The notes beneath the pieces are model-generated. The model did not search any database and was not told the origin of the DNA. It saw only the letters and a list, made by a program, of their open reading frames with translations. Source: Thoreauomyces humboldtii (taxonomy: Eukaryota > Chytridiomycota > Chytridiomycetes > Spizellomycetales > Powellomycetaceae). From it: a stretch of 28,479 bases of DNA. The stretch covers positions 1 through 28,479 of the forward strand of contig JADGJA010000240.1 in NCBI GenBank assembly GCA_027596035.1. Reading direction: 5' to 3'. This document shows positions 1,063-25,800 of this stretch, piece by piece. The position numbers were made by a program, and so were the translations under genes. Positions within the stretch are counted from its first letter, which is position 1, and every line of letters begins with the position of its first letter.

Positions 1063-2931
1063 TCAGATAGCTACGCCACGGCCTGTCGACGCTGGAACCT
1101 TGTCGCGGGCTGCCCGTCCTTCTGCCTCGGCCACGCTCAGGTTCAGTGCATACTCTGTCGGAAAATGGTCTTTGATGAGGAACAAGGGCGAGACAGGCGA
1201 TCCGACGGCAGCAGCCAACCACGTGGGACTGGTGAGAGCGGCCAGGGGAGAGAGCACGATCTCCTTGACGAGCGTTTTGAGGACACTGCGAAGGGGCCGT
1301 TCCGACATATGGAGACGCCCGCTTCGCCATCCGACTCGGACCGGCTGTCCGATATGACGAAAGTCGAGCAGCGTGATGCCAGGAGGACGGGTGGCGGGGA
1401 GTCCCGTCTGCGAATTCACTTTGGGCTGCATGGGGGCGGGTGCCTCCTTCTTGCCGCGAAGGTACGATCCCAGGGACGAGAGGGGCCCGCCCGGAGCCGA
1501 GCAGACGGGATCGTTCGCGTTGATGACGCGGTAAAACTGGTATTGGGGTTGTTCCGGGTTGAGCGTGGTGAAGGTATCATCGACGTTGGACAGCACCGTC
1601 TCCATCGCGTCCCGAAAGTCGGTGTCGCCCGTCTTGGGAGTCCCAAAGGTGTAGGTGCCGCGGAGAATGAACTCCTCGTCCCATTTCAGATTCACCACAG
1701 GAGATGCCTTTCCGATCTGGGTTCGCTGCCATAGCATCATCGCGGTGAACAGACTAGCAGTCGCTGCTCCAAGCGAATGACCTGCTATCCAGAGATCGGG
1801 TTTCGTGCCAACAGGAAATCTCAATAGGATTGCGAGAAGGTTGGGCAGAATTCCTGTAAAGAAGAAGTCTTTGCGATCGTATCGCTGAAGATTGAAAGGT
1901 ATGGGTTTCAAAGGTAGGTTGGATTGCCGACTTTTGCGGTAGTCGTCGAGGACGTCGGGTAAGAAGCTCGTTACCACCTCTTCATCGGGAAAACCGAGTG
2001 CGGAATAAAATCCCTGAGGCAGGGCACGGATTGATAAGCCCGTTCGCTTCGGAAATCCCCAAGCTCTTGAAGGACTCACTGTATGTACCAGACCCGGCAG
2101 CACGGCGTTCTTCGCTGGAGTTTTCCGCAAGCTGCAATCTGTCAACCATTCGCTGAGGTCAAGAGGGCTGAACGAAGAAAAGCTGATTATCAGCACCAGC
2201 AGACCAAAATTGCGAGGGAAAGGGACCTCGACATACCTAGTGCCTTTGAACGTCAGGCAGACGAAGTTGTATTTGACGGACCAAACCGCCAGTATGCAAC
2301 ACCCGTCGTGTCCAAAGCGAGTGTACTGAAAATCATTTCCCCACTTCTCGAATACAGCCTGCAAAACTTGGTTGCTCTCATACACGAGTGCACTCAAGTG
2401 GATGAAGAAGTCGGCTAGCTTGAGACTGAACGTGTTGGGCGGCTGGCGAATTTCGTGTAGAACGTCAGCCATTTCCCCCTCGTGGATCAACTTGTGGAGA
2501 TAATGAGCATGGAAGCCGGGTACGGGAAGCGAAACGAGAGAAAGTTTGAGAGGCATCTGCTGCTTGTCTCCCGGGATCGTGAACGAGTAGCCAAACAAAC
2601 GACCTCCGAGTATCCTGCCGGAAACGCGGAACACCCCTTCGACGACCGGCCAGACAAGAAGAGCGCAGAGGAAGACGAAAAAGACAAGGGCTGAGGTGGC
2701 AGCCCACAATCCTGCGTCGATGGCAGTGATCATGCTTGTCTGTAGGAGACCATAGAACTGATCGTAGTCTGTATCGTCAGTGACGTCTACGGCGCTGGAA
2801 ATATGATCGTTCTCGTTGTTGACGGAAAATGGCCGGACTCGGCCGCCTCCGGAGGGGTTGGCCACCTGAAATTTTCTGGGCTCAGAAGCCTGCGCGGCAA
2901 GGGCGGTGTGAGACAGGTGAGACGCCAACAT
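1063..2931 (-). CDS. Class 3 lipase, membrane-anchored
   Basis: Predicted alpha/beta-hydrolase of the fungal class 3 lipase family (triacylglycerol or diacylglycerol lipase type), hydrolysing acyl esters at a membrane. Exons run 2931-2237, 2167-2080 and 2013-1063, giving 577 residues. Both introns (2168-2236, 69 nt; 2014-2079, 66 nt) are multiples of three without stops, so the unspliced frame also reads through. Splicing restores the family motifs FKGTSPLDLSEWLTD and LVHTGFYSALGF. The nucleophile elbow GHSLGAA gives Ser341, NANDPVCSAP supplies the likely Asp429, and DHFPTEY the likely His544. A hydrophobic segment at about residues 75-100 should anchor the protein. This N-terminal membrane segment plus distal lipase domain recalls sn1-specific diacylglycerol lipases, but substrate specificity is inference. 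It is divergent from the glycosyltransferase gene and shares a 326-base promoter region with it. Confidence 0.85.
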   Translation of the reverse strand: MLASHLSHTALAAQASEPRKFQVANPSGGGRVRPFSVNNENDHISSAVDVTDDTDYDQFYGLLQTSMITAIDAGLWAATSALVFFVFLCALLVWPVVEGVFRVSGRILGGRLFGYSFTIPGDKQQMPLKLSLVSLPVPGFHAHYLHKLIHEGEMADVLHEIRQPPNTFSLKLADFFIHLSALVYESNQVLQAVFEKWGNDFQYTRFGHDGCCILAVWSVKYNFVCLTFKGTRYVEVPFPRNFGLLVLIISFSSFSPLDLSEWLTDCSLRKTPAKNAVLPGLVHTVSPSRAWGFPKRTGLSIRALPQGFYSALGFPDEEVVTSFLPDVLDDYRKSRQSNLPLKPIPFNLQRYDRKDFFFTGILPNLLAILLRFPVGTKPDLWIAGHSLGAATASLFTAMMLWQRTQIGKASPVVNLKWDEEFILRGTYTFGTPKTGDTDFRDAMETVLSNVDDTFTTLNPEQPQYQFYRVINANDPVCSAPGGPLSSLGSYLRGKKEAPAPMQPKVNSQTGLPATRPPGITLLDFRHIGQPVRVGWRSGRLHMSERPLRSVLKTLVKEIVLSPLAALTSPTWLAAAVGSPVSPLFLIKDHFPTEYALNLSVAEAEGRAARDKVPASTGRGVAI

Positions 2932-3257
2932 GTCACAGGTTGGTCTGGCGAAGGTAGAGAGCTATGAGGCCTCTATCGAGAGTTGGTCGAATCGAACACG
3001 AGTGGAATGCCTCCAAGAGCGAACTCTTCGCTGGAAACTCGGAGGGCCTTTCCGCCTTTTATTCGCCTGAGGACCGGAGGAAGGAGTTGACGGAAGCGAC
3101 GGCGATGATGCGTCGGCACGCCGTTGGTGTGTGCTCGTGTGTCCGTGCGTTGGCTCCGGTCGCTTCTTTGCACGAGGGCACCGTCACCCGAAGAAGAAGA
3201 TTAAATTACAGGGACCCCACTTCACCACCACCACCGTACCGTAGACCAAGCAAGAGC
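2932..3257. promoter_or_regulatory. Divergent intergenic region, lipase / glycosyltransferase
   Basis: These 326 bases separate two divergently oriented starts and must hold both promoters. No clear TATA box is seen. The glycosyltransferase frame stays open upstream through this region, including an alternative in-frame ATG about 150 bases before the chosen one, so its start is not fully certain. Confidence 0.5.
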
Positions 3258-4846
3258 ATGGGACCTCTGCAAACACCAGGACGGCCGCAGGAACCTTTCG
3301 TATTCAACCCGCGTCGTCTCGTCCGCTTCCTCACCGGTTCCCGACGCGTCGTCCGCTTCCTCACCGCATTGGTGATATTCTTGGTTGTCTGCTCCCTCAC
3401 CTTCAGATTCACACACAACCACGAGCTGGCCTCTACGGCAATAACGCCTGAGATCCAAGCTCATCTCGACAAGGTAGCGAGTCCACTTCCTGCATTACCG
3501 CAGCGATCGCCATGGCCTCAGGATGGTGCGAGGAACGCTTCGATCGATCAGCTGTACGCCATGGGCCACATACCCTGGCTGGACTATCTGGATACTCTAG
3601 ACGACAAGGGGCTCGCTCCGTTGACGAAACTGGCCCAGAGGTGGATCTATGAAAGGCAGCACCCGCCTGCGCGAGATTGCCCAACCCACAAGTTCCTTGT
3701 GTCCGAAGGGACCCAGGAGATCGGATTGGGCGCCTACCTCCACAGTGAGTGTTTCGACCGGTCCACGCAATCGATTATCAGAGACGGATATCCAACTTAT
3801 TCGTGTCAGAACAGGGTTTTGGGTTGGGCGCGGCGCTGGAAGCCGATCTCATCTTCGTCATGGAACCGGTGGGCTCGCGAGAAGGAGCCTTTGATTTCGC
3901 GGACGACTGCGGATCGAACGGCGACCCAATGACGAGTCAAGAGTGCTTCACGCAACCATTGAGCTCCTGCTCCCATCGGGACGCCGTTGTCGGTCGCAAC
4001 GCTTGGAAATTCGGATCGAGGATGTGGGACGTAGTAAACGCCAACGGCGTCAAGTTCTACAAGGACGATTGTCCGTCCTTTCTGAAAGAAAAGCTCCAGG
4101 CTTACTACCGCGGTACAGATCTCACACCGGCATTCTTCAAACTGTGGTGGCGAGCGCAGAGCGCAGCGTATCTTTCCCGACTCAATGCAGAGACGACCGA
4201 CCACCTGAGAACTGCTCGTCGCGATGCCGAGCTACATCAGACGTGGCTGCATGGAAACGATGGTCGACCGACCGCTGGCGTGCCATATCCTTTACCGCCT
4301 GGCACGTCCAGCCTCCACGTCCGACATGGCGATAAGGCGTCTGAGATGACGTTAGTTCCTTTCGAGAAGTACGTGGACGCCGCAGAGCGGTACTCGAGCG
4401 AGAACCCGCTGGCCGGTCGCAAAGCGCTTTTTGTGTCGAGCGAGAGCCCGGGTGTCATCGAGAACGCGGCGCGGCTGCCAGACGATGGCCGAAAGAAGCA
4501 GCTCACCTCCGCTGACGAACACTGGCAGGTGTTCACGTCCAACATCCCGCGCTTCAATTCTGGGCCATATCAGCAGATAAGAAAGTATGGTCCGTCGACC
4601 ATGACGCGGTCCTGGTACCTTCAGCTCTGGATGGCCCTGGAGTGCGATGCATTCTTCGGCACGCGGTGAGTCGCTGCTGAGGCTCCTCCATGTCCGATTT
4701 TGGCCGACAGCTAAGCGATTTTCGCGAGCAGAGCTTCGAATTGGAATCGCATCATTGACGAGTTCCGATGCATCTTTGTCGACAAGTGCCAGCTCCCATA
4801 CTTTGAGCTGGGTCCCGAGACGGACTGGGACGAGTACTTTTGGTAA
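3258..4846 (+). CDS. Type II membrane glycosyltransferase, fucosyltransferase-like
   Basis: Probable Golgi glycosyltransferase. Exons 3258-3744, 3810-4665 and 4732-4846 give 485 residues; the introns are 65 and 66 nt. Joining them yields continuous YLHKQGFGLGAALEAD and FFGTRASNWNRIIDE. A short basic cytoplasmic tail precedes a single hydrophobic segment at about residues 31-49, the type II topology of Golgi transferases. The motif SLHVRHGDK (His332) resembles the donor-binding HVRRTDK motif of alpha-1,6- and related fucosyltransferases. The downstream LFVSSESPGVIE and WYLQLWMALECDAFFGT segments fit the same fold (a sugar-nucleotide-binding half followed by a C-terminal GT/SNWNR motif). Fucose specificity is inference; another GT23- or GT68-like activity is possible. 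The start at 3258 was chosen because it places the membrane segment near the N terminus. The segment before the membrane helix contains an imperfect duplication (RRLVRFLTGS, RRVVRFLTAL). Confidence 0.75.
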
Positions 4847-5000
4847 TGGAACCGTCTTTCGGACCCTTGCCGTTTCCTTCCCTGTTTTTTCTTTTTTTTT
4901 TTTTGTTCTTCTTTTTGGTTCCTTTCCATGCACATTTCTTGTTCGCTGAATACACATTGCACACGCACATAGACACACGTACGTCTCATACTCATCAGCC
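4847..5000 (+). promoter_or_regulatory. Short intergenic region with T-rich tract
   Basis: Only 154 bases separate the glycosyltransferase stop from the RIX7 start on the same strand. A T/C-rich tract at about 4876-4920 includes runs of T. It could act as a nucleosome-excluding element for RIX7 or as part of the upstream 3' end. No TATA box is seen. Confidence 0.4.
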
Positions 5001-7875
5001 ATGGCTCGGGGAGCAGTATCAGGTCTTCGGAAGGGTGCGGCTTCGAGGAATCGTCCTACCCGGTCGCTGCAGGACGGCATCCAGCAAAGGATGCTTCCCC
5101 TCGTGCAAGAGTACCAGTTCCAACAAAGTCAGATAGAGGGTCTCCAGAGCGACGTCGCTCTGCGGGAAGAGGAGGTCATTCTTGCTTATATTCGGACGTC
5201 CGATCGAGAACTGGCAAGGACCAAAGACTGGAACTTGAGGACGGCACTGGCAAATGGTGACTTTCCGTGGAAACAGTTTTCGTTATTTTCTCAGGAAGAG
5301 GGGCTCTAATGGGTTTTCTGGAACTAGTTATACAAACGGTCAGACGCGAAGGGACGTCCTGGAACGATAACGATGGCAATGAAGATTCTGGTTCGGAGGA
5401 GTTTGAACCTGATGTGCCTATGATGGAAGTCAAGGTACATCTCACAGTGCCCAATCCGTTTACCCCAGTGCTCTAAGCGTCCGGTACTTTTGTAGAACAC
5501 AAACTCTCTCAACAGATCCATTCTTGGCGTTTATGGGCAGCACAAGCCAATAGTCGATAATCCACCAACCTCCGTAGCTACTGCAACGACAGCGGGACCA
5601 ACACCTGCAGAAGAAACCAACAACGCTGGGGAGCCGGCAGAGGGAGTTGTCAGGACTGTAGAAATCGAGGAGACCGAGGTGGATGTCACTACAGCGGAAG
5701 GCCGCACGCGCACCAACAAACGAAGACAACGGGACACGTTAAGCGGTCAGGAGCCAAAGAAGCGGCGCTCCGCTCTGCCCGCTTCCGAGAAATGGCCTAC
5801 GCCGACCGCCCGCTTGAGCGACCTAGGAGGCATGGACGGTTGTGTCGAAGAAGTGCTCAAGCTCATCGGGATGCCCGTGAAGCATCCTGAGATCTACTCG
5901 CACATCGGCACCGAGCCTCCGAGAGGCATCCTCTTCCACGGGCCTCCCGGATGCGGAAAGACGATGTTGGCACATGCCATTGCAGGCGAATTTGGCGTGC
6001 CGTTCATCAACATTTCGGCACCATCGGTCGTCTCTGGCATGTCCGGGGAGTCGGAGAAGAAGCTTCGGGAGATCTTTGAGGAAGCCAAGGAGCTTGCGCC
6101 GTGCATCCTTTTCATAGACGAGATTGATGCAATCACGCCAAAACGTGAGACTGCGCAGCGCGAGATGGAGCGCAGAATCGTAGCTCAGCTGTTGACCTGC
6201 ATGAACGATCTGTCCATGGAGAAGACGGACGGGAAGCCCGTGATCGTGATCGGAGCCACCAACCGACCCGATTCGCTGGACCCTGCGCTTCGAAGAGGAG
6301 GGCGGTTCGATCGCGAGATTAGTATCGGCGTTCCCGACCAACCGTCTCGCCTGAAGATCTTAGAAAAGTTGTGCAGCAAGTTGCGATTATCGGGCGATTT
6401 GGATCTGAACCAACTTGCCAAGATGACTCCTGGATATGTTGGAGCGGATCTGAGTGCCTTGACCGCGGAAGCTGGCATGCTAGCCGTCAGCCGATTCTTC
6501 AGCACCCTCAAAAGTAGAATCGTGGCACCAGATCTGCCTGAGCTTCTCAGATCGCTGCCCGTAGCAGCCCTGCTCGACGCAAATGCGATGGAGGTTGATT
6601 CCATATCGGTTACACCATCGCAAACTGAGGCGGTTGCGCTTGCTAATGCCTCCGAGGCATTCGAGGTCACGCCTCCTGCCCCTTTCTCTATCGCTCAGTT
6701 CCTCAGCGGCAGCACGGAACCGCTTACCGCAGCCGAGCTCGAGCCGCTTTGCATCCTCGAGGCCGACTTTACGGCTGCATTGAAGAAGGTGCAACCGTCC
6801 GCGAAGCGAGAAGGGTTCGCGACAGTGCCCGACGTGTCATGGGAGGATGTGGGCGCTCTGACCGGCATACGCGAGGAACTTCAGATGGCGATCGTGGAGC
6901 CCATCCGGAATCCCGAGCAGTTTGCGCACTATGGAATCGCTGGTTCCATGGGCGTCCTACTCTGGGGTCCGCCCGGGTGCGGGAAAACGCTGCTCGCTAA
7001 GGCAGTAGCCAATGAAACGTGCTGTAATTTCATTTCTGTGAAAGGGCCAGAACTCTTGAACAAGGTATGTGCGTCTTTGCTGGTTTCCGATTATGCTTTT
7101 GCTTATGTATCTGTTACAGTACGTAGGAGAGAGTGAACGGGCGGTGCGCACAGTGTTTGCACGAGCGCGGGCTTCGTCCCCTTGCGTTATCTTTTTTGAT
7201 GAATTGGATGCGTTGTGTCCAGCTCGATCCAAGGAAGCGGAGGTTAGTTGAACCTGCTCCCGCTTCCCTCCTCGTGTGATCACTCACAAGCTTCACCTGC
7301 AGTCTCAATCATCTTCACGTCTTGTGAACGCTCTGCTGACAGAGATGGACGGCATGGAAGGTCGCAAGGATGTATACGTCATCGCTGCCACAAACCGACC
7401 AGACATGATCGATCCAGCGATGCTGCGTGGCGGTCGTCTCGGAAAGCTGCTCTACGTGGACCTTCCATCAGCGCCCGAGCGGGCAGCCATCCTGGCCACG
7501 GTCGGGAGAAAGACCCCGCTCGCGGATGACGTGGACCTGATGGTCATCGCGAGCGATACCCGATGCGAAGCCTACAGCGGTGCAGACCTCGCGGCGTTGA
7601 TCCGCGAGGCGGCCGTGGCGGCACTTCGCGAGGGCATCGCACAGTCAGGTTTGACGCTGGGCGCTAGCATGCCGTCTTTTGTCAATGCTCGCGTTCATCA
7701 TCGTCATTTCGACGCTGCGTTTGGGAAGACGGCACCTTCCGTTAGCGCAAAGGTAGGATGAACTCTTCCAACACCTTAGGTAAATGTTCGCTCAATCTCT
7801 TTTCTGATCCATGTGTAGGATCGCCGAAGGTACGAGCATCTGCGAGTGCAGCTGAGCCGCGGGCCAGCGAGTTGA
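5001..7875 (+). CDS. RIX7: Ribosome biogenesis AAA-ATPase Rix7/NVL
   Basis: Nucleolar/nuclear tandem AAA-ATPase that strips assembly factors from pre-60S ribosomal particles. Exons 5001-5256, 5295-5434, 5496-7064, 7120-7242, 7303-7752 and 7819-7875 give 864 residues, close to yeast Rix7 and human NVL. An N-terminal helical domain (about 1-115) is followed by an acidic, low-complexity linker with basic clusters KRRQR and KKRR (likely nuclear localisation). D1 has Walker A GPPGCGKT near residue 280, Walker B ILFIDEID near 336 and the second region of homology [10 protein letters not shown]2 has Walker A GPPGCGKT near 622, Walker B IFFDELD near 680 and [14 protein letters not shown]. The D2 motif departs from the usual RPGRLD. 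The first intron is only 38 nt (5257-5294); the other introns are 55-66 nt. Closely related p97/Cdc48 is less likely because of the N-terminal domain and the RRGGRFDRE type of D1. Confidence 0.93.
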
Positions 7876-8972: not shown

Positions 8973-11900
8973 ATGAAAGCTACATGTGCACTCGTGCTCG
9001 CAGGTCTCCTGGCGGGACCCGCATCCGTCGCAGCAGTGCAAGGAACATGGCAGATTGTGGGCAACACGAGCTTGTCGTGCGTGCATCAGGCGTACACGTT
9101 CGGAGATCGCATATTTTGCATGGAGCGGCCCCATGTCTACCCTGTAAGCGAGAGCGCGGCGGCGTCCCATGTCCTCGGATTCCATCCCGCTGATCACACC
9201 ATCTTTCCCCTTCCGCAGTACGTGTGGAACATCTATGCTACCGGCCCGAATGGCGAGGTCTTTGAAGGCCAAGAGTCGACATTCATCAATTCGCAGGCAA
9301 CCTCTCAGCCCCTTCCCGTTCCTCAAGTCCCCTTCTGCTCGGGTCATTCGATGACTCAGACGGGAGGCGTCCTGGTCGCGGGTGGCGACATGCCCTATGT
9401 TGTCGGCAAGAACTGGGATGGCAAGCAGAGCATGTAAGACGTCTCACTCAGCCTTGCAAACGCTTGGGCTTGACCCTGATCTCTCGTTGATCTCAGCCGT
9501 GAGTATCATCCTGCACCCAAGACCATCGGCCAAGGACAGCAGCCTCTCGGCACCTGGTCCGTATACGCGAACATGACGACTCCGCGCTGGTACCCGACCG
9601 TTGCCACATTGGCCGCCGGAAAGTAAGTCGTCCCTAGCATTCGGGAATTTCGCAAGCGTTACAGTCGAAAAAATGGTCTTAACTTCCCTCGCTCTCGTTT
9701 TCAGCCATATCATCGTTGGCGGGTCATACAGCAATCGTAAGGAGTCCACACTCCCTTGTAATACTACTACCTGAGCTCACAGCCGCCGATGCCTTGCTTT
9801 ACTTTCCAGAGGCTGACCAGATCGATCAAAACAACCCAACCTACGAGTACTATCCGCCGAAGACGGGCGCGTTGTGGGTCAATGGCTATGTTAACCTTAC
9901 GTTGCTCGATGATGCCTGTGAGTACTCTGGCTTCCGCTTGGTCTCGTCAGTATCAATTAACTTGTTACTTTTTTCCGACAGTCCCGGCCATGCTGTACCC
10001 GCTGGTATTCCAACTGCCTTCTGGCAAAGTCTTCGTCTTTGCGAACACCTTCGCAAACTTGATAGATCCTGTCACCGATACCATAACTAAGGTAAAATGG
10101 TGATTCTAGGTTTCGTCTCATGCGTTCGCCGATCTGATGCTTTCAAACTAGCTGCCTGATCTTCCCAATGAGGGCTTGGACCACTCGCCCTGGACCTACC
10201 CTTTCACACCGACGGCCGCCCTTCTCCCTTTGCGTCCCAGCAACAACTACCTCGCTACTGTTCAGATTTGTGGTGGCACCGTCATATCCATTGTAGACTC
10301 AGCTGGTCTTCCCAAGGCCGCCACGACTTGCATGCAGATCAGTCCTGAAGCGCCGAATGGAGCTGTCTGGACGCGGGTAGAAGATCTTCCTACTGGACGT
10401 GTGATGCCAGATGTAGTCATCCTCCCCGGTAAGCTGTTGCTTGAGGGAATGTAGTATGCCGGACTGCCTGTCCTTATTTATTTACAATTGATAGATGGTG
10501 GACTCGTGTACACAAATGGCGGCGGAATGGGTCTCTCGGCCGGTGACGCCGGCACTGGTCGATGCTACAACCCTGCCTTCCAGACGGACATCATGTACCC
10601 AGAGCGCCCGGCCGGCCAGCGCTGGTTCCCCAATGTGGCGACCAGTACAATCTCTCGGCTTTACCATTCTGGAGCTCTCCTTCGATACGACGGCCGAGTG
10701 TTCACTACAGGTTCAGACCAGCAAAATTACATCGACAAATGGGGCACCAATGGCACTGGTCCCGTGCGAGAAAACTGCTGGCCCGTCGGACTTGATGTCT
10801 GCACCGACCCCTTCGAATACCGGATCGAGCTATTTACGCCTCCCTACCTTATCGGTACCACAAGACCTGTTATCGCAAGTGCCCCAGCAACCATCGTTCA
10901 TGGTCAGGCTTTCACCATCACCACCTCAACGGATGGAACTCTCGTGACAAAGGTCGTCATCATGCGACATGCAAGCACAACTCACTCGACAAACTCCGAT
11001 CAGAGACTGGTCGAACTGCAGATCACCGCGACGACAGCTACCTCTGTTACTGTTGTTGGACCTCCTAATTCGCGTATCGCGGTCCCTGGATCATACATGC
11101 TCTTCCTTCTCAACGCTGCTGGCACTCCGAGTGAGGCCACGGACGCTTTGGTGGCCGTTACTGCCACCTCGTATCCTGTAGGTACTTGCAGTTCCTTGGT
11201 AATCAATACCTTCTTCCAGAACAGCATCAACAACCTGGTAGGCTATTTGTCTGGAGTTTCACTTACTTGCTCGAAAAAAAAGATACGTGCTAAACTTCTT
11301 GTGAACCTAGGGCGGTGCTACTGGTGACGACGGAACCTCCATCGGCCTGCTTGCGACAAATGGTCGCGTCAAATTCACACCGCAGGCTGGAACTTACTAC
11401 TACGAAAACCTCGGCACGCCGTACATCAATGCGTCGCCTTACAACTTCCTTGTTATCTTTATCAACGCCAATGCCACAACGGTAAAGAATGCGACGACAT
11501 CCAGTATTTTTGGAGAACCTCAACCTGATTATGCACTCTTTCGTAGCCCTCGTTCACGCTTCAAGTGCAGACGGGTGCAACCACCGCTGTTAGACAGACG
11601 TTCCCGGCCATCAGCGTTGCATCCGGAGTGGATACACTTCTGGCTATCAACCTGACTGCCTTTGTTACTCCTGTATCCTCCCTCGCACAGCTCCGTGCCC
11701 TCTCATTGACCTACAATTATGGCACTACCGGAGTCTGGTCCATGGGGAACTTGAAGCTTGTCACCACCTTGGCTGACTGCGGCATGAGCTCGGCAAGGAT
11801 CGTCAACCCTACCACTGTAGCTGTCCCGACGACCGCTCCAGCTGGTTCCACCACGAGCACCGCGGCTGTTAGTACCTCGTCATCCGTTCCAGGCGTTGTT

Positions 11901-13369
11901 ACCACCACTAGCTCTGCAGTTATCGTTCAGACTTCGTCTGCGCCCGCCGTCACGACCACAGCGGCTGCTGTACCTCTTGGAGTGTGCAACCAGACGGCCA
12001 TCAACTCCTTTACGAAGTTTGGCGTCAATGCATTGGGCTACAGCTTCAGTGATGACGGATCAACCAGCAAATACACGGTGAACAATGGCATCCTGTCGTT
12101 CGTGCCTATCGCAGGATCCTACTACTACGAAGTCTTGAACTGCTTCTATACCGCCACCAGGCCCTACATCGCGTTCACCATCCAGAGCGCGGGACCGGTA
12201 CGCTGACACAATTTACGGGAAGGTTAAGTAAATCGATGCTAATCTTGCTCTTGCTACAGGTATCTTTCAGAGTGCAACTTCAAGGAGGTTGCTACTCCGA
12301 CGGAGCACAGATCAACGGACCTGTCTGGTCGGGCAACCCAGTCACGGCCACGACGATTGTCATCGACGCCGCCTCGTACCTTGCCACCGCTCCAGCTGCG
12401 TCCTCGAAGAGCCTCTGGTCTCTAGTGCTCGCCAGCATGACGGGAGACGGAACAACTTCCTGGCAGATCACCAACATCGTAGCCCTCAGCGGTCTCAACT
12501 CGGGATGCGGCTTCACGTCGGCCTCCCTGATCAGTTACACCGGTGTCTCGACTTGGTCTGCCAGTGCAGCGACTTCCACCAAGAGTACCGCAACGACTTC
12601 GGCTGCGGTCACTTCCACGAAGAGCAGTTCCGTTGCTGCTACCACGACTGCATCCGCGGCTGCTCCTTGCGTTTCGACTACCATCGATGCTTTCACTGCC
12701 CCGTACAGCAACGCTCTAGTAAGTGTCATGTTTGTATCTCACCTGAAAAGGACATGATGGACGCTAACCGCGCTGTGGCTTTTAGGGCGGAGAGAAGGGT
12801 GACGATGGTTCCATGGCCTCCTACGCCGTGTCGAACGGACAGCTAGCTTTCGTTCCCAAGGCGGACGGGTCCTCGTACCTTTACGAGAACGTCATCGCGG
12901 ATGGATCCACCGCTGCCATCAACGCGGCGCCGAACCCTATTTTCGTCTTTACCGTTCAAAGCGCCTATGCAAAGGTACGAGCAGTTGAAATGTGATTCGA
13001 TGGCGTTCGTTCTGAGTCCCCAACTGACGCCTTGTGGTTCACTTTCCTTGTTTCCTGCAGGCTGCGTTCACTGTCCAGATCCAGATCAAGGCGAACGGGG
13101 TCGTCAGCCGGTACCCCATCAACATCCCTGCCTTCGGAACGGCCGCCAAGACGTTCGCCATCTCGATCAGCAACATCATCCCCGCCACGTCCTCTATCAA
13201 CTCTCTCTGGTCGCTGGCCTTTGTCAACTTTGTGTCGGACGGCGCCACGCCCTGGTACCTGAGCAACCTGAAGCTCGTCAGCAGCACAACCGCCTGCGGT
13301 TTCGCTGGAGCCACGGTCCCGGCGGGAGCCGGAACGGTCCAGAGGAGGAAGAGGAGCGATGAGCTCTGA
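8973..13369 (+). CDS. Secreted copper radical oxidase (glyoxal-oxidase type) with three C-terminal modules
   Basis: Oxidises aldehydes or alcohols with O2, releasing H2O2 (family knowledge; substrate unknown). Twelve exons: 8973-9433, 9497-9622, 9705-9736, 9810-9917, 9982-10091, 10152-10428, 10495-11237, 11311-11481, 11547-12197, 12260-12718, 12786-12974, 13061-13369; 1211 residues, about twice a plain glyoxal oxidase. A signal peptide covers residues 1-22. All active-site residues are present: Cys122 (VPFCSGHS) and Tyr186 (TPRWYPT) for the Cys-Tyr radical cofactor, Tyr428-His429 (RLYHSG) and His535 (TTHS) as copper ligands. A galactose-oxidase-like C-terminal domain ends near 597. Three homologous modules follow (about 600-761, 821-986, 1030-1195), joined by Ser/Thr-rich, probably O-glycosylated linkers. 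The modules are unassigned and may bind carbohydrate or the cell wall. The protein ends in QRRKRSDEL: a dibasic site, then an ER-retrieval-like tetrapeptide. Confidence 0.92.
11178..13318 (+). repeat. Three tandem protein modules within the copper radical oxidase
   Basis: Modules span 11178-11801, 11979-12538 and 12668-13318 including introns. Each starts with a Cys followed by an INxF/IDAF-like segment, continues with NxLGG/NALGY, a D-D-G-S/T turn and a GSYYYE/GTYYYE-type strand, then a strand with a xSFxxQxQ pattern, and ends in a W..xNLKLV..xxCG motif. The pattern suggests beta-sandwich domains. Modules 1 and 3 have introns after the equivalent residues NNL and NAL; modules 1, 2 and 3 all have an intron just before the xxFxxQxQ strand. 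All are phase 0. Shared intron positions indicate duplication of a two-intron block, with one intron lost from module 2. Confidence 0.8.
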
Positions 13370-16290
<2,921 letters not shown>

Positions 16291-16714: not shown

Positions 16715-18103
16715 TCAGGAGGCGTTGGGATCGGGTTCCTCCTTCTTCAGGAGCCGGAAGAGACCGGCCGCCTCCCGTATCCTCGAGAACTGGATGCAGA
16801 AGGCTTGGATGTCCACGAAAAAGTCTGCTATCGAGATGGTTTTGTTGCGGATCAGAGACTGCAAAAACACGCACACCTAATTGAACCATGAACGGCATAA
16901 GTTCATACTGCATAGGGGAAAAGGGTACTGAGGACACTTCCGTACCAGTCGAACCTGGCGATTCTGCAGGTACCTGTCTCGCGTCTGATCGCAAGTCGCT
17001 ATGCATCTGACCACGTACATGCGAAGGAAATCGCTCGGCAGTGGGGTGGCCGAGGCGAGACGGTTGACGACCTCCAAGGAATGGAGGGACATCGTGACGG
17101 AGAGGAGAGCCGAGAGGTAGTCCTCGGGGGTTGCGGTGGCCTCGGGTGATGGAGGGTTGCGGAGGAGACGGACGAGGAGCTCGAAGGCCAGGTTGGGGTT
17201 GTTCTCGACGAGGAGCGGGAGGGCCGCAGGGGTGAGAGCTTTGTTTACGAGAGTGGCATCGTCGAGGGATTGCACCAGACTCTGCTGCTGGTCGAGGGGC
17301 AGAGGAGCCGACTGAGCTGCCTCCAGGATCGTTGTCCACAGGTCGGCTGCCCGATCGGCAAGTAGACGGGACGCTTCGAGACGGGGGCTTTCCGACATCG
17401 TCCCGCGTTCCGCCAATATTGCTTCCCGCAGCGATCCGGGGCCTTCGGGGGTCTGCAGTATGTTCAAGAAGTGTAGGGTGCTTTCCGCTGGAGCTTCCTT
17501 GTAGATCCGCGTGAAAAGCACAATAGCCTCCTGCAAAAGCGACTGCTGGTCTCCCTTTGCTCGACCGTCCGGAAGCGGTGAGGGTCGAGGCAAGGGGCGG
17601 CCCGAAGAATCCTCATACTGCTTGACAAGGCCCTGCAGTTCCGACGCCGCATCCTGGACGAACGACCATGCTTTCCGTGCCTTGGTCGGGTCTTCCATCT
17701 GCGCGGACACGACGTCGGGTGACGAATGTGCAGCAAAGCTATGGTCGCCGGTCACGAGCTTTGCGGCGAGCCAGTGTTCTGGCAGCAGCCGAGTTTCGTC
17801 CGAGCATTCCGAACCCGAGCGCGCGTACGAGAGAAGGGTAGCCAGGAACGGGTGTAGGATGGGGGATACATCGTACAAGGCGCTCAGAGCGTACAGCGCT
17901 GCCAAACGGAGGGGGATCGAGGGCAGCAAGAAGGACGGCTCTGCGAGCAGCACGGCCATGGCCACTGCGATTTTGAAGCGACGGACGCTGCTGGCTCCTG
18001 CCGAGGTAACGATGCGTTTGCCTATGGCATCGAAAGTCTTTTCGCTCCCCGTCAGATTCCCGTACAATGTCACTAAGTCCACATTGTCGTGAGCCGAGGG
18101 CAT
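16715..18103 (-). CDS. CNOT11: CCR4-NOT complex subunit 11
   Basis: Subunit of the CCR4-NOT deadenylase complex, which in animals docks with CNOT10 on the CNOT1 N-terminal region and affects mRNA turnover. Two exons, 18103-16946 and 16876-16715, give 439 residues; the 69-nt intron join produces [16 protein letters not shown], a strongly conserved family segment. The C-terminal domain (DUF2363) begins near residue 285 with [27 protein letters not shown] and [16 protein letters not shown], and ends in [16 protein letters not shown]. The N-terminal part carries the helical [22 protein letters not shown] segment expected of CNOT11 (shortened here to its key residues LLxEPxxLLP). The middle (residues 130-260) is low complexity and variable. 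Baker's yeast lacks a clear ortholog. The ATG at 18103 gives a complete N-terminal domain. Confidence 0.9.
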
Positions 18104-18600
18104 CGCTCCGTGGGGGAACGCCCGGGACTCTCCCGTAAGGTGTCAATCACAATACAGCAGCGATTCCCTCGATACAGCGAAGAAAGGTTCTGGGTTTGCG
18201 TCTACGTAGAGGTTGGTGGAAGTTCGTTTGGGAAGCGAGAGGCTTGCAAGGTAGGTAGTTGAGGTATGACCCAAGGAAACAAGGCTTGGACTGAACGCGA
18301 AGCGTGCGATTCGGAGGGGAAGACCAGAGAGAGGAACAGGGAAGTCAGCAAGAGGCACACCACCACCGTTTATATGTCTGAACAGGGCAGTGACTATGCT
18401 GGTGGAGTTGTCTGGAGGTGTTGGAGTTGGAGGTTGTCTTGTCTTGTCTGGGTGGGACATGGAGCGAGGAGCGAGGAGCGAAGAAGGGACCGGGAGGAGG
18501 AGGAGGCATGTCCGATGGGTTCAGACATAGGATCAGTGATCAGTGGCTATTGATAAACCTCCTGAAGATGGAGACCAGCTAGACTACCCTTTACGCGAGT
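18104..18600 (-). promoter_or_regulatory. CNOT11 upstream region
   Basis: These 497 bases contain the 3' end of GatB and the promoter of CNOT11. On the minus strand CATATAAA (18369-18376) is a possible TATA element, about 265 bases before the CNOT11 ATG. A purine-rich tract at about 18465-18510 lies further upstream. A 105-codon open frame here is probably untranslated. Confidence 0.35.
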
Positions 18601-20761
18601 CTAGCTAAGCTTGCTTTTGAAAATCCCAGCCACCATCACGGGATTGGACTTTCCCTTGGTCTTCTTCATCACCTCCCCAACGAAAAACTTGATCAGTCGC
18701 TCCTTTCCCTGCCGCACTGCCGATGCCTGTTAGGGAATAAAACGTGTTGTAGTTGATTGACTTGCTATGCACAGGAAGTGGAGCGTTGTCTGTCCTACCT
18801 CCTTGGGATGTGCGATGATCAACTCGGCGCATAGCGTCTCCAACTCGCCACGATCGTTGACCTGCACCCAACCCTTCTCCGCGGCGATGGCGGCAGCAGC
18901 ACGAGCATCCCCGTCCATCATCAGGTGAAGGGCGTCTTTTGCTCTGAGTCCTAAACAGCGACAGTTTTTCCATCTGAGTCGCGACGATCAATTGCGTGTT
19001 TCATCAAGCCGGCAAGTCCTCATTTACCGGATAGAGTCCCGCCTTCGACCATGTCGATCAGCTCGCCGACTCGACCGGGTTCCACGGGACACGCGTTGAG
19101 CTTCAGATCCCGCATGCGCAACCATCCAAACAGCTCTCCCACCACCCAGTTGGCAGCCTTCTTCCCGTTTCTTCCGTTTGCCACGGTCTCAAAGTATTCG
19201 ACAGCTCCAGGTTCGTCCAAAAGGATCTCGACTTGGTGGTGAGGCAAGGCGTAGTGGGTCAGCAGACGGGCTCGGCGTTCGTCCAGCGGTTCCGGAAGGC
19301 TGAATCGCACATTCTCGACGTATTCCTGCAGAGACAAAGGGATGTAAGGGTTAAGATGAACAATTATTCCAAAAGTTCGGCAAGTCTTCATCCTAACATT
19401 GGTAAGAAGGATCTGGGGCAGATCCGGTTCCGGCATGAACCGGTAGTCCTGGGAATCCTCCTTGCTTCTCATTCGGAAGGTCGTTCCCAGTCGAGCGTCG
19501 AAACCGCGGGTTTCTGCTTCTACCGGCTTTCCAGACTGGAGTAGCGCTATCTGTCGCTCGACTTCATACTCTCCATCAACAGATAAGGTTGGGATTCTCC
19601 TTGATCACACGCATGCATAACAAAGGAGCTTACCTATGGCCTCCTTGATGGATGTGAACTTGACGAGATGCTTTATCTCGGTCCGAACTCCCAGCGGGCC
19701 TCCCACAGGACGCACCGACACGTTCACGTCGCACCGCCAGGCGCCCTTTTTAATTGGACGACCGTTTCCCGATCAGCTCGAGAGTGGACTGTGACCTTTT
19801 TTTCTTGTCAAAGAACACGCACCTCGTCCATGTCGGCGGCCGAAACCTTGATGTACCAGAGCAATCGCTGTAGCTTCTTCAGGAACGCCACGACTTCCTC
19901 CGAGGACCTGAAGGGGCGCGGTTGGGGGTTGGTATTCGCGCGAGTTGGTACCGTTGGAGTCGCTGCCCCTCTTTGCCGGAAAAGTAAGCGGAATGGGCTG
20001 GGATTGGGGGCTCACCGGAGATCGGGTTCGGTGATGATCTCGAGGACTCCTACTCCCGCTCGGTTGAGGTCGATGAGGCTCTGACCCTCGGTGATGCCCT
20101 GGACCGTCTTTCCCGAGTCCTGCTCGATCTGGATTTGGACGAGTCGCACCCTCCTCCCTTCCTCTCCATCACCGTTCGCCTTCGTGGCGACGAGTCCGTC
20201 GAGGGATCCCACGTCGACCCATCCTCCCCGCGCCACGGGTTCCCAGAGCTGCGTGACCTGGTATCCGGCCGGTAGGTCACCGTAAAAGTAGTGCTTTCGG
20301 TCGAAGCTGGACACGAGCTGGACGTTGCTGTTGAGAGCGAGGGCGGTGACGACGGCCTTGCGAACGCACTCTGAGTTCAGAAGCGGGAGGGAGCCTGGGA
20401 TGGCAGCGTCGAACGGGTCGACCGAGGTGTTGGGTGAAGCGTTCGAGGCCAAGGGTGCAGGGGAGAAGAGCTTTGTGGTGGTGGAGAGTTGGGCGTGGAC
20501 TTCCAATCCAATCACTGTTTCCCATGCCGGCGATGACGAAGACTCAGAAGCAAGCAAGCGTCGGGAAGAGGTTGGGTGGCAGTGAGCGGGTGGAGGAGTT
20601 CGTATTGGTGGATGATGCCTTGGCAACAAGGGAGTACTGTTGGAAGACGCCGCGCGCCGTGCGAGAAAGAAAGCCACCGGCGTACGTTGCAGCCAGTACC
20701 CGAAGTTGCACGGGAGCACCGACGGACTTTGGCCGACAATGGCAAAGCCCTTGGGACGCAT
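18601..20761 (-). CDS. PET112: Mitochondrial glutamyl-tRNA(Gln) amidotransferase subunit B
   Basis: GatB component of the mitochondrial amidotransferase that converts Glu-tRNA(Gln) to Gln-tRNA(Gln). Seven exons, 20761-20016, 19907-19823, 19745-19634, 19570-19398, 19325-19028, 18950-18799 and 18726-18601, give 563 residues. Splicing recreates family motifs across junctions: ITEPDLRSSEEVVAFL, DEGAWRCDVNVSVRP, KEAIEYEVERQI and TLSGLRAKDALHLM. The catalytic core starts at ETVIGLEVHAQL (residue 81). Residues 1-75 are rich in Arg, Ser and Pro with few acids, fitting a mitochondrial presequence. The C terminus holds the GatB/YqeY tail domain (RLIKFFVGEVMKKTKGKSNP). The frame remains open 98 codons upstream of the chosen ATG, but the chosen start best fits a presequence. 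Introns are 63-108 nt. It is divergent from the beta-lactamase-like gene. Confidence 0.94.
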
Positions 20762-21169
20762 GCCGAACGTTGGGTTAGTGAAGTCTGAACCACCTTCTCC
20801 GCGAGAAATGCCACCACGACGAATCCCCAATCTTCGACGAATCTCGCGAATGTTGTTGCATGTATCGCGGTGGTGGGGAGACGAGATGAGATGAGATGGA
20901 AGGGCAAGCCACTCCGCAATCCGAAAGGAACACCGCACGCCGCACCTCGCCCCATGAAAAAACGGCACTCGATAAAAACGGTCCAAAAAAGCTAAATGGG
21001 ACAGATTGCGGTGCGTGCGGTGGAGGTGCGGTGGGCAAGTTTCTGGCTCCACCAAGTACCGGTTTATGCCTTTCTTTTATAAGGGACGGCCACCCGTTCC
21101 CATGTCGTCTCGAGTTCACCCAGATAGTCCGTCCGTCCTTCGCTTCACCCGGTAACCTCCCTAGCAGAC
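20762..21169. promoter_or_regulatory. Divergent promoter region, GatB / beta-lactamase-like gene
   Basis: These 408 bases separate two divergent starts. TATAAG at 21078-21083 lies 92 bases before the hydrolase ATG and is a likely TATA element for it; no clear TATA faces GatB. This fits a highly expressed, regulated hydrolase beside a housekeeping gene. Confidence 0.55.
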
Positions 21170-22723
21170 ATGTTCCCCTTCCTTCCCGATGCCGTTCCCT
21201 CTCCTTCCAAGGACATCCTTCACCTCTTCGAGTCCAAGGTCTGTCCAGGAAAGACCATGCCGCTGGAGAGGTACCTGCAGCAGTACGACCTGATCCCAGG
21301 CTGCTCCATTGCTGCCGTGAACGGAGGGGAGATCCAGTGGGTCAAGAGCTATGGCGTCAGGCAGGCGGACGCGGGCAAGGAGGACGGCGGACTGAAGCCC
21401 GTCGACGCCTTCACCCAGTTCCAGGCGGCCTCCGTGTCCAAACCCGTGACGGCCGTGGCGGTCGGAAGGTTGGTCGACCAGGGTCTCCTGGACCTCGATG
21501 CGGACGTCAACGTCTACCTGAAGAGGTGGAAGGTGGAACCTCCCGTCGGCGTCGTCGTCACCCTCCGTCTCCTGCTCTCCCACCGCGCCGGTCTGAGCGT
21601 CTCGGCGTTCTCGGGCTACGCGAGGAACAACGAGGCGAGCAGGGCCAGGATCCCGAACCTCGTCGGCGTGCTCAACGGTGACGGGAACAGCGTGCCCGTG
21701 GGCGTCGACTCGGTGCCCGGTTTCGAACGGTACTCGGGAGGTGGGTACGCCGTTGTCCAGTGCATCATGGAGGACGTCTGCGGGAAGCCCTTCCACGAGA
21801 TCATGGACGAGCTGATCCTGACGCCGTGCGGCATGACTCACTCCACCTTCAAGCTGGCCGACGTCGCTCCTCCTAGCGACAACTACGCTTCGGGACATCC
21901 CTTCTCCCACGCTTCCATCTCGGGCAAGTACATGGCCTACCCGGAATCGTCGGCCGCAGGTTTATGGACGACCGCCTTGGACATGTCTCGCTTCGGACTG
22001 GTGCTCGGGAAGGCCGTCCGTCCGGTCGTGGAAGGAGCTGCTCAGGACAGGAACGACTCGGGTCGGGGAGATCTGCTCCTCAGTCAAGCGATCGTCAGGG
22101 AGCTTATCACCATCCCAGGCGTCGAGTTGAACGCGGAGACGGACAAGAACCCGGCCAAGAAGCGCATGACCCTCGGTTTCAACCGATGCGGGTACGATTC
22201 TAGCCTCCGCCTCTCCCACGGTGGAGGAAACCTCGGTTTCACCTGCGTCTTCGAGATCTGTCCGGCGGGTGGGTTTGGGTTCGTGGTGTTTCTGAACGGC
22301 CACGATGAAGGTGGACTGTTCGGACAGATCCGTGGAGCGTTGCAGGAGATCTATGGCTGGACTCCGGTCGCTCCACTTAAGGAGAAGGAGTACAAGAGCG
22401 AGGAAGAAGCTGGCAAGTACGTCGATTTTGCCACGATCGCTGGGACTTACAGGGCTGCGAACGGCGACGGTACCTTAGTCATGCAAGTCGACGGAACTTG
22501 CTCCTTCCCTCCCTTTGCGAACGGCCCGTTCGGTCTCGAGAGGGTCGAGGAGAACAAGTTTGCTCTCATAGGGTTCCCTTCCAAGGCCCCCGAAGGCACG
22601 TCTCTCGAGCTGCGGATGGACGAAAAGACACACAAGTGCCTTGGCGTGGACATGGAGGGACCGGGTGACGACGGCGACGCGGTCAGCTTTGACCGGGTTG
22701 CGGATGAGGTTCCCAGGGAGTAG
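21170..22723 (+). CDS. Serine beta-lactamase-like hydrolase (peptidase S12 family)
   Basis: Penicillin-binding-protein/class C beta-lactamase fold hydrolase. In fungi such proteins are esterases, amidases or D-aminopeptidases rather than resistance enzymes; the substrate is unknown. One uninterrupted frame of 517 residues. The catalytic SxxK is Ser88-Val-Ser-Lys91 (AASVSKP), the second motif is Tyr188-Ser-Gly (where YxN is usual) and the third is His350-Gly-Gly (LSHGGGN), matching the HxG variant. About 120 C-terminal residues (from [11 protein letters not shown], near 421) form an extra beta-rich domain seen in many S12 family members. There is no signal peptide or obvious membrane segment, so it is probably cytosolic. 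Codons are strongly C-ending, and the gene has its own TATA box, both pointing to high expression. It lacks introns while neighbours have many. Its stop lies only 87 bases from the convergent QNS1 stop. Confidence 0.88.
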
Positions 22724-22810: not shown

Positions 22811-25800
22811 TCAGTTGCACTTGTCTCCCACCGTCTTGAGCTTAGTGACCGCCTGGGCACCCTCGTCGATCCTCCTAAACTGCCACGTCCACGACGAGTT
22901 GTACAAGAAAGGTCGCAGATCAAAACGGTTGTCATCGGGAGAGTACGGGGACATGTGGTACGAAGGGGGAAGAATAGTCGTCTTGTGACGGTTGATGGCG
23001 TAATAGAAAAAAAATGACTTGACTTTGTCGGCAATCTAGGTGAGCAGGTGTTAGTACTGTCCGGGGATGAACGAATTGGCCTTCCGGCCAGATAGATTGT
23101 CCTCACGTCGGTTGGTGACAGGATGTGTCCCCAAGTGTGCAGAAGCTTTGAGAACATGCCAAACGGTCCGCATTTCGCCACCTTGCGGAGCGTGCCGTAG
23201 ATTGAGAGCTCCTCGTACGTCATCTTCATGTCCACCTCGTCGCCCTGAACATAGTCCTTCGTTATAGGTTCAAGCTCCGCCGTGGGCATGGCGTCCAAAA
23301 ACCTGCAGAAAGGAGACTAGTGTCAGTCGAGCTTGATTCCCATCGGGGGAAATGGGCATGACTTCCGGCTTACTCCTGCAAGATATCGAGACCCAGTTCT
23401 GTTCGCGAGTAGGCGACGAACTTTCGAAGATCAATCTTGGAGATACCACCAATCGGGTTTACATCGGCGCTCGAACAGTCGTATTTGGTAAAGTATCCGC
23501 GCAAACTATCAAGAGCTCCATTAGCCGGACATTTTCTGCTGGTTCTCAAATCAAGAGGTGCCTTCTACTTACGTCTCATCTACGTTGGCGCTGCCCAGTA
23601 CAAGCAAGGCACCGGCTCTGCCCCGAATCCACAGCAACAACTGAGCAAACATGTATGCTAGCACCATCCTGGATCTCGCTTGAATGTTCTGCAAAGCCAG
23701 ATTCTCCGTCTCTGTGCCTCCCCGGATCTTATACACTGGCATCTTCCCCGTCGCCATTTGGAACACGGAGAGGAATGCTGAGACGATAGAGTCCATGTTG
23801 ATGTCAACGTGGCAACTTCCAATCCACTCTGCCAGATGCTTCGCTCGAGCCCGTGTGTCCTTGGATGAGTTCTCAGTCCCCATGTAGCACGTATGGAAGA
23901 TGCGACCGCTAAACTCTTTGGGATCTGTTGGAACGTACGAGGAGTCGGCGACTTCGCCAGCCACTCGTCGGGCATCGGCAATAACCTGCTTCTCTGAGGT
24001 TACGAGCACGGTAAGTCACCGCGGAAGTCAGCGAGGGTTTTCGATTGGGCACCTTGATGTCCTGCTCATACCTCCGTTCTTGGCAGCCTTGCAGACCAGG
24101 TCGCACATGGAGTAAACAATGACGGCGGTGCAGCAGCTGTCCAGGCCGCCGCTGAGAGGAAGAAAGAAGCCTCCGGACTTTGAACGTCGGAGGTAGTCCC
24201 ACAACCAGCAAGCTGGGCCGTATCTGCTGCCAAATCAGCAAAGGGCAGCCACAAACGGAAATTGCCATGTCTACTCACCGAATCTCCTCTTCCGGGGAGT
24301 GATAGAACGGTGCGCGAGGCTCAGATGGAGGGGAAATGTGTCCGTCTTTGAAGGCATCGTACGTCAAGGCGATATCGGCGAAGACCCGAGGGTACGTGGG
24401 TGCAATCACGGCTTGAGCCGTGCGGCTGGGTTGATCCCCGCGACGCGATCGCACTTCCTCGATGTCCATCGTCGCAATCACAACTTCCTACATTCCCCAA
24501 CATTGGTTCTCAAGATCCTTGCTAAAGACATGGCTTCTGAGCTACATACCACATCCTTGAGGGAAAATTGAGTGCCTTGGGCCAAGATTTCTCCGTTCAT
24601 AACAATGAGTCCGACCCCGTCGTAGTACACTCGTTCCCCGTCACATCCTTGCTGGTTCGCATAAAGGTAGATACCTCCGGACTATCAAATGGGCACTCAT
24701 CAGCAAGCGTCGGTAATGCGAGGGTTGATCCACGTGTGCCCGCCCTACGACACCACCTTGCGCGTGGCTCCCCGAATCAGATCTATCCTAGTGTCTAATT
24801 TTCGGAACTCGTGATGACTTCCACTACTATTGGTGAAAATCTCGACTCCGTCGAGCGCTTGATGAATGTGCGGACTGGTAAATATTACATCAGTTTGAGG
24901 TCTTCTGGTTAGGCAGCACTGGGACTTCACCTGTCTGGAGTGAAAAGCTCCTCGCACATCTCCGTTCCCAGAACCGTGCTGAGACAAGAACCTGATCAGT
25001 CAGGAGTCCACAGACGAGGGCCAGACCTTGAGACGTACTCTCTAGCCGAGATTACACCATCTCCGAAAGGAACGGTGTGCTAAATTCAAAAACAAAAAAA
25101 AACAGAGAATGGCGCTGTCAGTTATGCGCTCTCCCTACTAAGCGGCCGTATCCGAACTCACCTGCTTGGTGATCTCCGAGATGATTCGCGGGAGGTAGAA
25201 GTCTTCGACCGTCCTTAGTTTTTGCCAAGCAGCAAACCACCTCATCTCCCGATAATTCCCGTCATTGGCGAGGAACATCTTTGGTCGGATCAGAAGAACC
25301 TTCTTGTTGAGAAAGATGACCCGGCAATTGTACTTGACGTTTTTGTGGGCCACGGGCCTGGACGCGCCAGCTATATGAGCACATGCATACTTCACAGGCT
25401 CTGGAACCTCTGGGCTCGTCTCACATTCCCACATCAATAAGCATGTCCTGGCATACATCAGCCGCCAGGAGCTTTGCGAGGACTTCCCAGGAGTGGAGGT
25501 AAGTGTCTCCTAGAGGCAGACACATCGCAGGTAAGGACTCCAACGTCCACATCTCCCGGCGTCTCTTCTTCCAAGCTCGAACCTTCGTAGAAATGATCGT
25601 TGCATCCATATCCTCTGTTCGCGAACCGCAAGCATTAGCTTGGAGTTCCGGCAATACTCATCGGACCGCGCTTGCAAGTTCCTACGTTATCTCAAGCTCA
25701 GGACCCAGACGATAACGCGCACCCCCTTCCTTGGCCAGCCGAATGCTCTCGAGGATTCGCTCGTAGTTGCCTTGAAAGTCAAGCGCCCACTGGTTCTGAA

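Follow-up and report, generated by a model that had tools for sequence, protein, structure and literature searches.

Accessory domains are widespread on fungal copper radical oxidases, where WSC and PAN/Apple domains have functions that are largely unresolved and both the accessory domains and the natural substrates are poorly understood (PMC13390370; this and all other papers are cited from the excerpts available). In AA5_1 aldehyde/glyoxal oxidases of the FgrAldOx type, the appendages are N-terminal WSC domains with eight cysteines (PMC13094651, PMC13390370), three of which stand on the enzymes of Fusarium and Colletotrichum (PMC13094651). Fusarium galactose oxidase and aryl alcohol oxidases (AA5_2) carry a single N-terminal CBM32 (PMC8207647). 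Among the carbohydrate-binding modules (CBMs) themselves, CBM29-1 and CBM29-2 form a tandem pair in non-catalytic protein 1 of Piromyces equi, and CBM29-2 and the CBM8 of the Dictyostelium endoglucanase CelA (DdCBM8; 7t7y) have in common a binding platform of two Trp and one Tyr, which is planar in DdCBM8 (PMC9079177). An oxidase followed by tandem binding modules has also been built by hand: fusing CBM29-1-2 to the C-terminus of galactose oxidase gave a protein that was stable and uniform, whereas the N-terminal fusion was expressed poorly (PMC4706568). Here we describe a gene whose product may be a natural counterpart of that man-made design, a copper radical oxidase with a row of three binding-type modules at its C-terminus. 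It lies in a 28,479-nt stretch (the window) of contig JADGJA010000240.1 from Thoreauomyces humboldtii, a chytrid of the family Powellomycetaceae with a genome assembly of 20.7 Mb in 823 contigs.

Like the FgrAldOx-type enzymes, the Thoreauomyces oxidase combines an AA5 catalytic module with repeated accessory domains, but these are C-terminal beta-sandwiches with 2 to 4 cysteines. With the Fusarium AA5_2 enzymes it shares the joining of a carbohydrate-binding-type module to a copper radical oxidase, although those belong to a different subfamily from its nearest kind. No such C-terminal array is described in the available excerpts of the oxidase literature on accessory domains (PMC13390370, PMC13094651, PMC8207647), no description of the oxidase itself was found in the titles and abstract starts of open-licence literature on chytrid copper radical oxidases or AA5, and the excerpts of PMC8778642 and PMC6690862 do not mention such a protein. 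The features of the gene are as follows.

8973-13369 (+), whole oxidase gene, 12 exons, 1220 amino acids (splicing; identity to database protein HKX48_003745)
8973-9433, 9497-9622, 9705-9736, 9783-9917, 9982-10091, 10152-10428 (+), exons 1-6 (splicing)
10495-11237, 11311-11481, 11547-12197, 12260-12718, 12786-12974, 13061-13369 (+), exons 7-12 (splicing)
8973-9035 (+), putative signal peptide, about residues 1-21 (hydrophobic stretch CALVLAGLLAGPASVAAV, mean hydropathy 2.11; cleavage site placed by eye)
9294-11141 (+), catalytic part of the copper radical oxidase, introns included (Pfam domains and active-site residues)
11184-11789 (+), module 1, type A, residues 611-766, two introns (profile search, tree, introns)
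11790-11981 (+), linker, residues 767-830, 41% Ser+Thr (composition)
11982-12517 (+), module 2, type B, residues 831-988, one intron (profile search, tree; AlphaFold pLDDT 89.4, pTM 0.85)
12518-12664 (+), linker, residues 989-1037, 53% Ser+Thr (composition)
12665-13306 (+), module 3, type C, residues 1038-1200, two introns (profile search, tree; AlphaFold pLDDT 91.8, pTM 0.88)
13307-13369 (+), C-terminal tail ending QRRKRSDEL and stop, not strongly hydrophobic

Removal of 11 GT-AG introns of 46-86 nt each leaves an open frame of 1220 residues from the ATG at 8973 to the stop codon ending at 13369, and the spliced product is identical, residue for residue, to the public T. humboldtii protein HKX48_003745 (P0001). 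A reading of the DNA made without database searches (the sequence-only reading) had proposed a complete glyoxal-oxidase-type enzyme followed by three homologous C-terminal domains, and the open frame, the active-site residues and BLASTP comparisons all bear this out. It had also considered that the transcript might end near 11240, close to where module 1 begins (11184), in which case the oxidase and the module part would be two adjacent genes or the product of a faulty gene model. We dropped this explanation as practically negligible: positions 11238-11310 read as an intron, the frame runs unbroken across the introns, the annotated protein is identical to the spliced product, and the same fusion, with a conserved tail, is present in three orthologous entries from two other genera.

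The catalytic part contains both domains expected of AA5, Glyoxal_oxid_N at residues 108-330 (Pfam E = 1e-19, 71.2 bits, cut-off 37.5) and GO-like_E_set at residues 504-596 (E = 9e-24, 84.1 bits, cut-off 25). The active-site residues are also present, namely Cys122, Tyr186, Tyr437, His438 and His544; the sequence-only reading had placed the first two correctly and the other three nine residues too early (Tyr428, His429, His535). We take the Cys-Tyr pair, the second Tyr and the two His to be the site residues and ligands of copper radical oxidases, and all five are identical in all eight aligned sequences (the Thoreauomyces protein included; chosen from 51 returned). By sequence, the best solved match was FgrAldOx of Fusarium graminearum (9n3u, E = 1.3e-35), followed by Streptomyces GlxA (4unm, E = 2.8e-24) and galactose oxidases (best E = 3.9e-17), whose chains align to the catalytic part only. 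The protein is predicted to be a copper radical oxidase of the AA5 type, closest, as judged by the best solved match, to the glyoxal/aldehyde oxidases. An NCBIfam scan of P0001 and of an enzyme-free relative described below (P0052) returned only GlxA, on the catalytic part, with 133 bits against a cut-off of 800. Five more GO-like_E_set matches occur in the genome (C813, C581, C456, C77, C256; L002-L006) and are possibly other copper radical oxidases; none of them coincides with a place matched by the module searches.

The profile that set the module boundaries was built from three modules of the oxidase and three of relatives in the genome (alignment A2). The three modules are clearly homologous, with pairwise BLASTP E values of 2e-19 (1-3), 4e-16 (1-2) and 6e-19 (2-3), in agreement with the tandem homology proposed from the letters alone. 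The Ser/Thr-rich linkers claimed in the same reading were found between modules 1 and 2 and between modules 2 and 3 (residues 767-830 and 989-1037), where they are probably flexible and O-glycosylated; no linker of this kind separates module 1 from the catalytic part. Both module 1 and module 3 have phase-0 introns at alignment columns 19 and 86, a type-C module of a relative has introns at the same columns, and the single intron of module 2, at column 81 by alignment, likewise lies directly before an x-Ser-Phe stretch and probably represents the same ancestral site. Duplication of an intron-bearing unit explains this pattern.

A search with the whole protein, which covered lengths of about 671-2135 residues, gave 51 proteins, the query among them. 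Four of these carry modules: the Thoreauomyces oxidase with three, a Powellomyces hirtus protein (1707 amino acids) with six and two Geranomyces variabilis entries (1678 and 1674 amino acids) with six each. All three genera belong to the Powellomycetaceae, and the catalytic parts of the three orthologs are 61-63% identical to that of Thoreauomyces. Single-module queries of the T. humboldtii genome, in which the best candidates were scored, revealed three further places. C208 encodes a 430-residue protein with a B-C layout and a signal-like start, identical to database entry P0052, and the search that returned P0052 also gave three two-module Geranomyces proteins (P0053-P0055) and nothing else at E ≤ 10. 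The product of C70 has 579 residues, in which a single B module follows an N-terminal region without a Pfam match; that search did not return it even though its length is in range, so that either the search is not exhaustive or the gene is unannotated. The third place, C304 (L037, about 3900-5322, -), is apparently a degenerate copy of the one-module gene C70 with part of the middle missing, as judged by eye.

For a maximum-likelihood tree we used the 21 modules of the four oxidases and three from the two other genes of the genome, 24 in all. Module 1 of all four oxidases grouped together (100/98), module 2 of all four grouped with the B modules of the relatives (99/97), and Thoreauomyces module 3 stood beside modules 3-6 of the other oxidases and one module of a relative (93/86). 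The tree program warned of long branches meeting, Thoreauomyces modules among them, so that part of the grouping may be spurious. There are three module types (A, B and C), most simply explained by an ancestral A-B-C order followed either by multiplication of type C in Powellomyces and Geranomyces or by loss of copies in Thoreauomyces. As the three protein searches each scored only the roughly 8000 candidates with the most shared words, relatives in Spizellomyces or Dikarya may exist. Modules with a similar 'DDGT' motif may be found in ascomycetes. With the tail including its Ser/Thr linkers as the query, only the protein itself was found at E ≤ 0.001, a search that was probably swamped. When bacterial and archaeal genomes were scanned with an alignment of four type-C sequences, none of the 38 pattern matches was confirmed.

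To which family do these modules belong? The sequence-only reading had seen in them secreted beta-sandwich domains outside any named family, which might direct the enzyme to a polymer, and had proposed profile searches and structure prediction as checks; both agree with it at the level of predicted fold. Beyond the two catalytic domains Pfam had no convincing match in the oxidase, and nineteen modules scanned one by one gave nothing convincing either, neither WSC nor CBM32 nor any other named domain. The best match (E = 0.0068) was the short neuraxin repeat MAP1B_neuraxin in one of the 19, which we judged to be chance, as were DUF4979 (two of the 19, best 0.027; also P0002, 0.068, and P0003, 0.09) and Ourmia_CP (P0003, 0.028). 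PF01822, the WSC domain, did not match any module at E ≤ 10, and the 2 to 4 cysteines per module, counted in 28 modules, compare with eight conserved ones in WSC. A WSC search of the T. humboldtii genome also gave no match, but neither did control genomes, so absence from the genome is not established. The module profile had no match among all PDB sequences at E ≤ 10, even though CBM29 and CBM8 both have PDB entries.

For the AlphaFold models of both module 2 and module 3, the top Foldseek matches were carbohydrate-binding modules, and the predicted folds correspond to the beta-sandwich of CBM29 and to the fold of DdCBM8. As is general for CBMs, they are separate (predicted) folds joined to a carbohydrate-active enzyme. 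The same lists also include proteins without known CBM status, and matches in a viral structure library, many of them phage tail and fibre proteins, have this common fold too.

Could the modules be highly divergent members of CBM29 or CBM8? Both families appear among the fold matches, CBM29-1 and CBM29-2 come from Piromyces equi, which is an anaerobic chytrid-like fungus, and an invariant Tyr of the modules (Tyr47) may fall near Tyr46 of CBM29-2 in an alignment by eye. We nevertheless consider this improbable. No sequence relation to either family emerged, from the PDB profile search or from hhalign against CBM29-2 (probability 0.1%, a weak test with a single template sequence), and identity is only 8-12% to CBM29-2 in second alignments and 16% and 10% to CBM8. 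Moreover, the Trp pair of the shared site (W24 and W26 beside Y46 in CBM29, W572 and W574 beside Y600 in CBM8) is missing: 26 of 28 modules have no Trp within residues 1-45 and the other two only Trp13, the expected place having been set by eye. A Tyr46 equivalent is possible. The modules instead appear to form an undescribed CBM-like family, limited to the Powellomycetaceae as far as the searches reached.

The 28 modules comprised 21 from the oxidases, three from C70 and C208 and four from P0053 and P0055, with P0054 and C304 excluded. Eight positions are invariant in all of them (Cys2, Asn16, Pro42, Tyr47, Tyr49, Glu50, Trp140 and Cys155 in module 2 numbering), and the two Cys, one close to each end of the module, are probably joined in a disulfide. 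All eight type B and three of four type A modules have a further pair of Cys (near 55 and 85), which module 1 of the Thoreauomyces oxidase no longer has as a pair; type C modules have no extra Cys, except for a lone one in 1 of 16. As the Trp pair is missing, the modules would contact sugar, if they bind it, through other residues, for which the aromatic cluster 47-49 and positions 112 and 129 are candidates only.

We think it likely that the protein is a secreted AA5 oxidase whose C-terminal array of carbohydrate-binding-type beta-sandwiches holds the enzyme on a polysaccharide. As expected from its family, the oxidase would form hydrogen peroxide from small aldehydes or alcohols; judging from their fold and layout, the modules would bind a polysaccharide of the debris on which the chytrid grows, or of its own wall. 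Several weak sites could add up, with two of the modules set off on flexible, probably O-glycosylated linkers, and peroxide would be released locally at the polymer. Alternatively, the modules might bind no sugar at all and act as spacers, or as protein-protein or adhesion domains that keep the oxidase within a complex of the wall or matrix. The missing aromatic pair, the presence in the match lists of proteins that are not known as CBMs and the suitability of Ser/Thr-rich linkers for a stalk would all fit. We regard it as unlikely, though worth keeping in mind, given that carbohydrate-binding modules were the top matches of both models, that the modules are attached to a CAZy-type enzyme and that their multiplication in relatives would suit avidity. 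With polysaccharide anchoring as the preferred explanation, the modules are possibly a new binding-module family to test and a handle on the polymer at which chytrids aim peroxide.

Its putative signal peptide suggests that the oxidase is probably secreted. The end of the protein, RRKRSDEL (13343-13369, +), resembles a kexin site and also an endoplasmic reticulum (ER) retrieval signal. If SDEL acted as the latter, the oxidase would be kept in the secretory pathway, where its modules could bind nascent glycans, and one HSP70 of the same genome, taken as BiP, does end in HDEL. This is very improbable, however: SDEL follows a basic cluster that would suit kexin cleavage, and it is not conserved, because the orthologs end in HVDEF or TGTA/TATA. 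The enzyme-free proteins differ from the oxidases at this end. In all five intact ones (the C70 product and P0052-P0055) there is a hydrophobic stretch close to each end, with a C-terminal mean hydropathy of 1.50-2.48 compared with 0.6-1.1 in the four oxidases, which suggests that the enzyme-free proteins are probably anchored by glycosylphosphatidylinositol. If so anchored, they could link the cell surface, through the same modules, to a polymer of the same kind.

Downstream of the oxidase, on the same strand, lies a catalase-peroxidase gene. It and the other window genes with Pfam matches are listed here; three of ten window frames, scanned as single open frames, had no Pfam match.

14071-16290 (+), catalase-peroxidase KatG, open frame without introns, possible functional partner (TIGR00198 above cut-off, PF00141 twice)
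1063-2958 (-), class 3 lipase
5496-7133 (+), AAA ATPase
16880-18142 (-), CNOT11
20012-21076 (-), GatB
21128-22720 (+), beta-lactamase-type serine hydrolase
23572-24015 (-), NAD synthase

The AA5_2 oxidase gene of Colletotrichum and Magnaporthe adjoins a gene for a heme peroxidase that is required for activation, while in Verticillium a catalase gene adjoins the AA5_2 gene, with no common regulation found and the catalase predicted to be intracellular (PMC13390370). KatG, like the Verticillium catalase, has no evident export signal (no evident signal peptide by eye), and a partnership with the oxidase is therefore only a suggestion. A wider proposal, which we put forward tentatively and with some doubt, is that an undescribed fungal CBM family, so far seen only in the Powellomycetaceae, is used twice, in three or six copies at the oxidase C-terminus and in anchored surface proteins, making it the chytrid equivalent of the WSC domains that Dikarya oxidases carry, and that the adjacent KatG serves as an activating or peroxide-removing partner, as the heme peroxidase does for the Colletotrichum copper radical oxidase. 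KatG starts 701 bases past the oxidase stop codon and is full length by TIGR00198; among the peroxidase-family loci found in the genome, two others match, and KatG is the only one with two full matches.
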